This document shows positions 4,238 through 52,069 of a stretch of 59,390 bases of DNA, one piece after another. The position numbers were made by a program, and so were the translations under genes. How positions within the stretch are numbered: position 1 is the first letter of the stretch; each line of letters opens with the position of its first letter. The stretch lies in NCBI GenBank assembly GCA_947365805.1, contig CANAZY010000006.1:1-59390 (forward strand), in the 5' to 3' direction. Under the pieces are notes generated by a model, which was not told the DNA's origin, made no database searches, and saw only the letters and a list, made by a program, of their open reading frames with translations. Source of the stretch: an uncultured Clostridium sp. (GTDB lineage Bacteria; Bacillota; Clostridia; TANB77; CAG-508).

Positions 4238-4927
4238 TTACGTTTTTCCTCCAATTCTCTTTCGGCATTTGATTTTTTTAAGTAAAGAGGGGAAATCGAT
4301 GCAATTTCATTTTTAGAAAACATATCAAATGCAGCTCTTCCTGTGTGATAAGCATTTAAATTCATATAATCTGAACGATTTTGGATAATGGCATTTTTAT
4401 CCAAAATTGATTCTAACACATCTTGGTAAATCGTGCTACCATTTCCGACAAAAAAGACAGGTTTGTTACAAACTTTTAATATTTCTGTAATATTAAAAAT
4501 GGTATCTGCTAAAAATTCTCCAACTTGTGTATAAATTCCGTTTTTTATGTTCAAATAATCCATAATATACATTATTATTTTTGGCATCAATTAAAGAACA
4601 AATTAGTCCTTCATAATTGGAAGAATAGGCAAGAGATGTAAGAGAGCTAATACCAACACTTGGTTTTAATGTTGCATCACAAAATGCTTTTATGGTAGAA
4701 ATGCCAATACGAATACCAGTAAAAGAACCAGGACCTTTGTCACAAGCAAATAAATCAATATCTGAAACAGATAAATTTGTTTTACAAAATAGCTCATCAA
4801 TTAAGGGCATTAATTTTACCGAATGGGTATTAGCATCATCAATTGTGATCTCTTTTATTAAATTAGTATCTTCCAAAATAGCAACAGAGCATATATTAGA
4901 AGAAGTATTAATACTTAAAATTTTCAT
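4234..4927 (-). CDS. tsaB: tRNA threonylcarbamoyl-adenosine protein TsaB, +1 frameshift at CGGA
   Basis: TsaB is the scaffold of the TsaBDE complex that makes the t6A37 modification of ANN-reading tRNAs, a function essential in most bacteria. The N-terminal part (129 codons) has the ASKHA signatures MKILSINTSS and DKGPGSFTGIRIG. In that frame the gene would end 15 codons after an in-phase CGG at 4540-4538. Moving +1 at that codon (C4540 skipped, then GGA) continues into FFVGNGS and the RAAFDMF region and gives 230 residues, the normal length. Removing one A of the neighbouring A6 run (4541-4546) would also restore the frame, so a homopolymer indel cannot be excluded for this site alone. It overlaps tsaE and rimI by four bases each. 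Confidence 0.88.
4537..4540 (-). other. CGGA +1 frameshift site in tsaB
   Basis: The in-phase context on the minus strand is CAT AAA AAA CGG AAT. Read in frame, the product stops early. Skipping C4540 gives AAA AAA GGA ATT and rejoins the second half of TsaB. This is one of five such sites in the window. Confidence 0.72.
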
Positions 4928-5382
4928 AGTAACTCCTTTATTAATCTTTCATATTTTTCACCATATGGTTGTATTGTTAAAACTCGTTTCGATTCGTGCT
5001 CTAAATCTCGTTCAAATGTAATATGTAAATATTCCTTTGGTAGAACATCTTTAATTTGTTCACCCCATTCAACAATACAAATACCATTTTCAAAATATTG
5101 CTCACCACCAATGGCATAAAATTCATCACTTGAAGATAGGCGATATACATCGAAATGATAAATATTTGTACTATTTTTTTGGTATTCGTTTACAATCGTA
5201 AATGTTGGGCTAGAAATTTCGTCTTCAAGTCCAAAATAAGATAAGAAGCCTTCCGTAAATTTTGTTTTACCAGAACCTAAATTACCAGATAAAACAACAA
5301 CATCACCATGGTGTAATTTACTTGCTAAATTACAAGCAAGATTCATAGTATCATTTTCTGAGTTTGAAATATAATTATACAT
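4924..5382 (-). CDS. tsaE: tRNA threonylcarbamoyladenosine ATPase TsaE
   Basis: The small P-loop ATPase of the t6A synthesis complex, driving turnover of TsaB-TsaD. The Walker A motif GNLGSGKT follows the VVVLS strand, and the typical ISSPTFTIVNEY and HFDVYRL segments are present. I place the start at 5382 (152 residues) rather than 5403, because AAAGGAAG lies seven bases before the 5382 ATG and the family begins close to this point. It is the first gene of a minus-strand operon with tsaB, rimI and the Lon-family protease, and it overlaps tsaB by four bases. Confidence 0.93.
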   Translation of the reverse strand: MYNYISNSENDTMNLACNLASKLHHGDVVVLSGNLGSGKTKFTEGFLSYFGLEDEISSPTFTIVNEYQKNSTNIYHFDVYRLSSSDEFYAIGGEQYFENGICIVEWGEQIKDVLPKEYLHITFERDLEHESKRVLTIQPYGEKYERLIKELL

Positions 5383-5416
5383 AAGTAATCTTCCTTTATT
5401 CATATATTATATATGT

Positions 5417-5445
5417 ATTCTATATTATTCTACGCAAAATGTAAA
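5417..5445 (-). promoter_or_regulatory. Promoter of the tsaE-tsaB-rimI-lon operon
   Basis: On the minus strand TTTACA (5445-5440) and TAGAAT (5422-5417) are separated by 17 bases and point at tsaE. Both hexamers are near the sigma-A consensus. Confidence 0.6.
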
Positions 5446-5486
5446 TTAATATCGAAAAAAAGATGAAAAAAACTTTTAAAAAAGTA

Positions 5487-16849: not shown

Positions 16850-16978
16850 TCATAATTCGAGTGTTTCGCAACTCAATTCAAAATGGCGAACGATATATTC
16901 GAGGTTTCACACCTCATAAAAAATAGTGAACGATATATTCGAGTTAATGCTAACTCAAAACAAAATAGCATAATTTAA
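16850..16978 (+). ncRNA. ToxI-type antitoxin RNA (type III TA), three tandem repeats
   Basis: Three tandem units of about 41 bases, each starting with TTCGAG (16856, 16898, 16938). Each folds a short hairpin: GAG-TGTTTCGCAA-CTC, GAGG-TTTCACA-CCTC and GAGTT-AATGCT-AACTC. Each ends in an A-rich segment like AAATAGTGAACGATA. In type III systems the toxin RNase cuts such a precursor into units that fold as pseudoknots and lock the toxin. Repeats, then a terminator, then the toxin gene is the diagnostic layout and is seen here. The remaining bases of this 300-base gene-free stretch hold only the promoter. Confidence 0.85.
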
Positions 16979-16985
16979 TTAATGG

Positions 16986-17019
16986 GGGTTAAAATTTAAT
17001 TTTAACTCTCATTTTTTTT
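16986..17019 (+). terminator. Leaky terminator between ToxI and toxN
   Basis: GGGTTAAAA (16986-16994) pairs with TTTTAACTC (17000-17008), followed by an eight-T run. In ToxIN loci this terminator sets the excess of antitoxin RNA over toxin mRNA. Confidence 0.82.
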
Positions 17020-17037
17020 GTATAAGGAGATGTTACA

Positions 17038-17535
17038 ATGAAGTTGAAATTTTATGAAGTAGATAGTGAATATATTAAATATTTAAAAGAAAATGGTGAT
17101 AATAAGATTCCTAATGTTGATTATGAAAAACATAAAAAATTCTTTTGTGGTATAGTACTTACAATAAATAAATTTAATTATTTTGCTCCAGTATCTTCTT
17201 ATAATAAAAAGGCTTACACTACATTCTTGATTATGGATAAAGATATGAAAACAAAAGAACTTAAACCTATATCTTCATTAAGATTTTCCTTTATGTTTCC
17301 ATATCCAATAGAATATTTAAATTAAAAAGACTTTTCTAAAGAAGATGAAAAGTATCAAGTTTTATTAAGAAAAGAATTACATTATTGTAATATGAATAGA
17401 GAGAAGATTAAAAAGTTAGCAAATCAAGTATATAAATTAGGATTAAATGAAGTAAGTAGAAAAAGATTCAATATATGTGATTTTAAAAAATTAGAAGAAA
17501 AGTGTATGGAATATATAGAAAAGAAGAATATTTAA
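17038..17535 (+). pseudogene. toxN: ToxN-family endoribonuclease toxin, interrupted by a stop
   Basis: Residues 1-95 match ToxN/AbiQ toxins: MKLKFYEVDSEYIKYLKENGD, the FFCGIVLTINKFNYFAPVSS strand region and FMFPYPIEYL. A TAA at 17323-17325 then ends the frame. The same frame continues without any shift for 69 more codons (KDFSKEDEKYQVLL, REKIKKLANQVYKL, KKLEEKCMEY) to a TAA at 17533, and this is exactly the expected C-terminal half. Intact, it would be about 165 residues, normal for ToxN. A single nonsense change has therefore probably disarmed the toxin while the ToxI repeats remain. AAGGAG precedes the ATG. Confidence 0.85.
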
Positions 17536-17642
17536 ACCTTTATAACTAAAACTATTGTGTAAAAAGAAAAAATAAGATATTATAAATAAAAAGATAAGAT
17601 TGTCAGCATTTTGTTATACGAAATTTTAAGGACATATAAAGA

Positions 17643-51379: not shown

Positions 51380-51408
51380 TTGACATATGAAAAAGCATAT
51401 GTTATCAT
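51380..51408 (+). promoter_or_regulatory. Promoter of the CptI-like antitoxin RNA
   Basis: TTGACA (51380-51385), 17 bases, then TATCAT (51403-51408), ending seven bases before the first repeat. Confidence 0.8.
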
Positions 51409-51414
51409 ACTATT

Positions 51415-51524
51415 AACAAATAGGTTTCGCAACCCTACTTGCGAAGAACAAATGCGTAGGTGAACAAATAGGTTTCGCAACCCTACTTGCGAAGGACAAA
51501 TGCGTAGGTGAACAAATTAAATAG
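51415..51524 (+). ncRNA. Type III antitoxin RNA with 48-base tandem repeats (CptI-like)
   Basis: Two nearly identical 48-base units (51415-51462 and 51463-51510; they differ by GAAGAACA versus GAAGGACA) and the first bases of a third. Each holds TTCGCAA..TTGCGAA arms that can form a hairpin and an A-rich AACAAATA boundary, where type III toxins cut. The RNA is followed by a terminator and then the toxin gene. This is the diagnostic order of a type III system, and it is not a CRISPR because the repeats are directly abutted with no spacers. Confidence 0.85.
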
Positions 51525-51566
51525 GGGGTTTACTAATTACAGTGGTAGACCCTCTATATTTTTATA
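51524..51566 (+). terminator. Leaky terminator between antitoxin RNA and toxin
   Basis: GGGGGTTTAC (51524-51533) pairs with GTAGACCCTC (51545-51554), with one or two G-T pairs, then ATATTTTT. Confidence 0.75.
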
Positions 51567-51586
51567 CGCAAGTAGGAGGGAAAATA

Positions 51587-52069
51587 ATGAAAATTGAAGA
51601 AGGAAAATTCTATTTTTTAAACGATTCATTTTTTGAAAAAATGAAGGATAATAATTTGGCTAACAATAAAGATAATGGCAATAAAAGACCATGCTATTAC
51701 TGTTTTAAGGACAAGAAGGAAGATGGATTAATTTGGTTTGTTCCAATTAGTTCTAAAGTTGATAAGTATAAGAAAATTTATGAAGATAAACAAAAGAAAT
51801 ATAAACGAGTTGATACATTGGTGTTTGGAAAAGTAAATGGTGAAGAAAGAATCTTTCTAATTCAAAATATGTTTCCAACAATACAAAAGTATATTGAGGA
51901 AGTGTATGTAAGAAAAAAGAGTGAGGTAAGAATTACATATTTATTAGAAAAAGAAATAAAAGAAAAGGCAAATATTATATTAGAAATAGCACAAAAGGGA
52001 AAGAAAGTAGTATTTCCTGATATTATAAAAATAAAAGAAATGCTATTGAAAGAATTAAGAGGAGAATAA
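51587..52069 (+). CDS. Type III toxin endoribonuclease (CptN/ToxN-like)
   Basis: A 160-residue toxin candidate. It begins KFYFLNDSFFEKMKDNNLANN, continues RPCYYCFKDKKEDGLIWFVPISSKVDKYKKIY and has VDTLVFGKVNGEERIFLIQNMFPT. The layout of an N-terminal beta-rich part with FVPISSK and a K-rich helical end is the ToxN/CptN fold. The Clostridia context favours CptN, but the family split is by memory. The frame is intact, unlike the ToxN locus at 17 kb. The ATG at 51587 has AGGAGGG upstream, and that ribosome-site region contains CGCAAGTAGG, complementary to the antitoxin repeats. Likely roles are phage defence by abortive infection and plasmid-like self-maintenance. Confidence 0.8.
   Translation: MKIEEGKFYFLNDSFFEKMKDNNLANNKDNGNKRPCYYCFKDKKEDGLIWFVPISSKVDKYKKIYEDKQKKYKRVDTLVFGKVNGEERIFLIQNMFPTIQKYIEEVYVRKKSEVRITYLLEKEIKEKANIILEIAQKGKKVVFPDIIKIKEMLLKELRGE

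Follow-up and report, generated by a model that had tools for sequence, protein, structure and literature searches.

Organization of the locus

A complete type III toxin-antitoxin locus occupies positions 51380-52069 of the window, the whole stretch of 59,390 nucleotides that was analyzed, with a promoter, two tandem 48-nt CptI antitoxin units, an intrinsic terminator and a CptN toxin gene in this order (Table 1). All four parts listed in the initial annotation were present, and its coordinates were exact. The promoter is predicted to be of the sigma-70 type and to drive a joint antitoxin-toxin transcript. It ends 6 nt before the first repeat, and the predicted transcript start (approximately 51415-51417) is the first base of that repeat. 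The two units are identical at 47 of 48 positions, with the single mismatch falling in loop L2, and the array they form has the top Tandem Repeats Finder (TRF) score (199) among the arrays in the window. The terminator stem is followed by ATTTTTAT, and its hairpin folds with a z-score of -4.45; across the whole stretch, terminator-like sites numbered three (one on the + strand), against 0.2 expected. The toxin reading frame, previously called as a complete 160-residue protein, was confirmed from its ATG at 51587 to its stop codon at 52067-52069, with a Shine-Dalgarno sequence upstream.

Table 1. Features of the CptIN locus, in positions of the window
Feature	Position	Strand	Basis
Predicted promoter: TTGACA, 17-nt spacer, TATCAT	51380-51385, 51403-51408	+	11/12 consensus matches
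CptI antitoxin unit 1, 48 nt	51415-51462	+	Repeats, pseudoknot scan, covariation in relatives
Unit 1, S1	51425-51432/51439-51446		
Unit 1, L1 (C)	51433		
Unit 1, S2	51434-51438/51456-51460		
Unit 1, L2	51447-51455		
CptI antitoxin unit 2, 48 nt	51463-51510	+	Repeats, pseudoknot scan
Unit 2, S1	51473-51480/51487-51494		
Unit 2, S2	51482-51486/51504-51508		
AACAAAT, 7 further repeat bases	51511-51517	+	Sequence
Intrinsic terminator between antitoxin and toxin	51521-51557	+	15-bp stem, T-rich tail
Shine-Dalgarno AGGAGG of the toxin gene	51574-51579	+	Sequence
CptN toxin, 160 aa, ToxN/MazF-like fold, predicted endoribonuclease	51587-52069	+	Family model, 4RMO match, fold

The toxin belongs to the CptN family

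The search with family models that had been proposed as a check supports the assignment to CptIN. The toxin scored 185.6 bits against the CptIN equivalog model NCBIfam NF047359, twice the cut-off of 90, and the same match was recovered in a whole-genome search; the score against Pfam ToxN_toxin was 20.7 bits, under the 25-bit cut-off. PADLOC returned no match. The sole sequence match in the PDB was CptN of Eubacterium rectale (4RMO; E = 2.3e-27, 37% identity), and the solved ToxN and AbiQ chains had no significant sequence match to the toxin in this search. An AlphaFold2 model of the toxin, built from 18 sequences (alignment A1), reached a pLDDT of 89.6. Foldseek again placed 4RMO first (TM 0.86/0.89, rmsd 1.9 Å), followed by MazF-family ribonucleases when ranked by E-value, with AbiQ (4GLK) at a TM of ~0.7. 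The lack of a match to the ToxN fold had been named as an outcome that would speak against the locus, and these structural matches instead favor it.

The residues named for E. rectale CptN are the catalytic triad S51-S52-R53, the base-contacting D81 and S85, and Tyr104 (PMC4627078). In the alignment to 4RMO, the triad corresponds to S55-S56-K57, with lysine at the third position of the expected Ser-Ser/Thr-Arg pattern, and Tyr104 is kept as Y107, while D81 falls in an alignment gap and S85 is replaced by R88, so that neither of these two is conserved. Lysine is the commonest third residue of the triad among the relatives in the 18-sequence alignment, and the change from arginine to lysine therefore looks like a difference between clades, not a loss of function.

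The antitoxin units form an H-type pseudoknot

Both units show the arrangement of an H-type pseudoknot with a one-base L1 and a long A-rich L2: S1 is TTTCGCAA/TTGCGAAG, L1 is C, S2 is CCTAC/GTAGG, and L2 is AACAAATGC or GACAAATGC. A simple pseudoknot scan gave a score of 30.5 for both, a value that none of 200 dinucleotide shuffles attained: their top scores did not go beyond 27.0, nor their second-highest beyond 19.5. When 26 distinct units, taken from the window and from relatives, were aligned, 98.3% of the pair cells were paired, and 7 of the 11 pairs had changes on both sides, a level reached by none of 500 shuffles. When partners were slid by 1-3 columns as a control, pairing fell to 30-47%. 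The CptI units thus form an H-type pseudoknot that is supported by compensatory changes. Folding the 48-base unit, which had also been suggested as a check, proved uninformative: plain folding gave z-scores of -0.8 and -0.2 and returned a nested hairpin whose pairs have no compensatory changes in the unit alignment, which indicates that plain folding cannot detect the pseudoknot. In an Rfam scan, no family of antitoxin RNAs passed the gathering threshold.

The register of cleavage was transferred from a 45-nt unit in a relative (L011), where it adjoins a CptN resembling that of E. rectale. Of the 16 nucleotides that the 4RMO paper names, this unit matches 15 (U4, A7, A10, G13, G22, U23, G24, A27, A29, U30, A31, A33, G35, G44 and A45; PMC4627078), the sole disagreement being C6, which is U. 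On this analogy, cuts are predicted within AACA|AAU at 51418/51419, 51466/51467 and 51514/51515, each to within 1-2 nt. The initial annotation had counted two 48-base repeats plus a partial third. Its two repeats stand, but the seven bases AACAAAT would most simply be the terminal cleavage site that releases unit 2. The functionally required A29 is kept in a near-invariant column.

Compared with the E. rectale system (4RMO; PMC4627078), the locus shares the toxin fold, the gene order, two tandem units and the H-type pseudoknot, including its one-base L1 and a 9-nt A-rich L2 with AAAUG; the toxin also keeps the equivalent of Tyr104. It differs in having units of 48 nt where E. rectale has 45, a lysine in place of the arginine of the triad, no conservation of D81 and S85, and a transcript predicted to begin at the first repeat; in addition, the kink nucleotide U30, which is U in most relatives, is C here. 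ToxIN of P. atrosepticum and B. thuringiensis and AbiQ have the type III class, overall fold and gene order in common with the locus, but have 34-36-nt units and form hexameric complexes.

Relatives of the locus

A scan of the contigs of the genome collection with the single toxin sequence retrieved no relatives, and an alignment-based scan of the collection confirmed 247; nearly all of the 80 of these that were listed come from uncultured Clostridia. CptN was present in 44 of 194 related genomes. Most relatives inspected have the same layout, with the promoter first, then two units, the terminator and the toxin gene, and the unit measures 45-52 nt at the 104 loci with a measurable repeat, 48 nt being the commonest length (57/104).

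A tblastn search of phage records gave no match to the toxin. In a viral contig (IMGVR_UViG_3300029906_000167, L157), positions 4757-5474 hold a CptIN with all its parts (two units, a terminator and a toxin), embedded in an operon of phage structural genes. The genes for a tail protein and the tape-measure protein flank it, and it lies downstream of the major head and tail protein genes; a close relative of its toxin is found at G002:C21 (L008). Two further CptN frames run on into additional C-terminal sequence (363 aa at L037, G019:C17, which looks methyltransferase-like by eye, and 241 aa at L039, G092:C44). These long frames may be fusions, frame overlaps or assembly effects.

Insertion site and selection

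The locus lies between a transglycosylase gene, just upstream, and galE. The transglycosylase gene is present in 21 of the 22 genomes of the genus, and in most of them it is followed directly by galE across a short intergenic region, that is, an empty site. Within the genus, only this genome and G019, which belongs to another species, carry a CptIN after the transglycosylase gene. This distribution is most simply explained if the module entered between two resident genes before the two species split. Two other species of the genus (L064 and L065) carry different small genes in the same intergenic region, and the spot thus seems prone to insertion. We rejected the idea that the promoter dyad CATATG-N6-CATATG is a remnant of the resident terminator hairpin present at the empty site, as 56 of 1000 shuffles reached the local alignment score, which is not significant.

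The syntenic CptIN of G019 (contig C12, JAAWOE010000001.1; L009/L077) has a toxin 81% identical to that of the locus. Its promoter hexamers are identical and both of its units are nearly unchanged; it differs in the sequence of the terminator stem and by loop differences within the promoter spacer. Between the two CptN orthologues, dN is 0.10 and dS 0.61-0.69, and the resulting dN/dS of ~0.15-0.17 indicates that the toxin is under purifying selection. Together with the near-unchanged promoter hexamers and repeats, this low ratio argues that the module has been maintained by selection.

Other type III loci in the genome and genus

The genome carries three type III loci: the CptIN described here, a second CptIN on another contig (G000:C7:37371-37844, minus strand), and a ToxIN 34.5 kb upstream (16855-17537). 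In the latter, the ToxN frame starts with an ATG at 17038 and contains an internal TAA at 17323-17325; this stop is its only interruption before the family profile ends, and repeats and a terminator-like hairpin persist upstream of it. The second CptIN has the same gene order and 48-nt units, and its toxin is 53% identical to that of the locus, but it differs in the stem sequences of its units and in a longer leader. Because these stems differ, the two CptIN systems of this genome probably do not cross-neutralize. The second system is flanked by a serine recombinase and a Mob_Pre relaxase (L036, G000:C7:33000-42000), and its position between them suggests that it is probably carried on an integrated mobilizable element.

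The earlier claim that it is unusual to find two different type III systems within 35 kb holds for the distance only. Among the 22 genomes of the genus, 11 have CptN matches, 16 have ToxN matches and 8 have both (some matches being partial), which equals the 8 expected under independence (11 x 16 / 22). Moreover, the two families lie ~5, 22 and 9 kb apart in G003, G013 and G020, respectively. With co-occurrence at expectation in 8 of 22 genomes and three other genomes spacing the two families within 22 kb, we rejected the view that their closeness is special; in the genus and family, the two commonly occur together and commonly lie near each other. G090 and other members of the family carry up to eight ToxN-family matches, a high load for genomes of ~2 Mb.

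Proposed function and alternative readings

We consider the locus to be a functional chromosomal CptIN type III toxin-antitoxin module, with a probability of roughly 0.94, based on its anatomy, family, fold, pseudoknot covariation, purifying selection and defined insertion site. It had been described as CptIN-like and apparently intact; the family model, the 4RMO match, the fold, the covariation and the selection on the toxin bear this out and make it a genuine member of the CptIN family, that is, an ordinary module of a known kind. The lysine in the triad and the lack of conservation of D81 and S85 count against a functional module, but lysine is the usual residue in the aligned relatives. 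In the mechanism that we propose, one promoter would produce a short RNA with two pseudoknot-forming 48-nt units that mostly ends at the terminator, and partial read-through would provide the CptN mRNA. The steps that follow, from cleavage sites and stoichiometry to toxicity and any benefit through addiction or abortive infection, are modeled on relatives. CptN would act as an endoribonuclease that releases single units from the precursor by cleavage at the A-rich linkers, and these units would bind and inhibit it in a ring of two toxins and two RNAs, as in E. rectale CptIN. Should the supply of antitoxin fail, because the locus is lost or because something such as a phage shuts off host transcription, the RNA, being short-lived, would be depleted, free CptN would cleave cellular RNA, and growth would stop. 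Addiction that stabilizes a plasmid or the locus itself is the role that we infer from relatives, and phage defense is a possible one. In the published test, E. coli gained no protection from E. rectale CptIN against over 200 coliphages (PMC4627078), so phage defense is unproven for the family.

Membership in the ToxIN family instead of CptIN would account for the weak ToxN_toxin match, but that score lies under the cut-off, the CptIN equivalog model is passed at twice its own, 48-nt units with a 9-nt L2 suit CptI and not the 34-36-nt units of ToxI, and the nearest structure in both sequence and fold is a CptN; we rejected this reading, which is scarcely credible. It is also very unlikely that the locus is a decaying remnant, complete in anatomy but with toxin or antitoxin function lost, for example through the arginine-to-lysine change in the triad. 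Such decay would be in keeping with the ToxIN toxin broken by a stop on the same contig and with the interrupted or fragmentary toxin genes of several relatives, as well as with the lysine itself; however, lysine is the common state among aligned relatives, and between the two species dN/dS is low and the promoter and repeats have hardly changed, which is not what a remnant would show.

The leader sequence CGCAAGTAGG (51567-51576) is an exact 10-nt complement of CCTACTTGCG, which occurs in both units (51434-51443 and 51482-51491). Accordingly, the antitoxin could also repress translation of the toxin by pairing with its Shine-Dalgarno region, beyond type III inhibition. In the G019 orthologue, nine of the 10 nucleotides persist despite many changes elsewhere in the leader, and a nested fold of the full transcript pairs the Shine-Dalgarno region with unit 1. 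Yet the complementarity is restricted to this lineage, other loci share the CCTACTTGCG core without a complement in the leader, five swapped antitoxin arrays match the duplex energy, and the pairing strand is already occupied in both pseudoknot stems. As a lineage-specific feature that performs no better than swapped controls, antisense control of the Shine-Dalgarno sequence was rejected as a candidate, and we regard it as improbable. Somewhat less probable again is a dual mode in which the CptI repeats would both bind the toxin and sequester the Shine-Dalgarno sequence of its mRNA, whose translation would then need processing of the read-through transcript by the toxin itself; if true, this would add a type I-like layer to a type III system.

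The locus provides a covariation-supported pseudoknot model (7 of 11 pairs) for a CptI antitoxin that has no Rfam match here. The pair of CptIN systems with different antitoxin stems in one genome offers a natural setting in which to test how antitoxin specificity is maintained. Finally, type III systems are common and multiple in this lineage of uncultured gut Clostridia, to which the locus adds a syntenic and selectively maintained CptIN.
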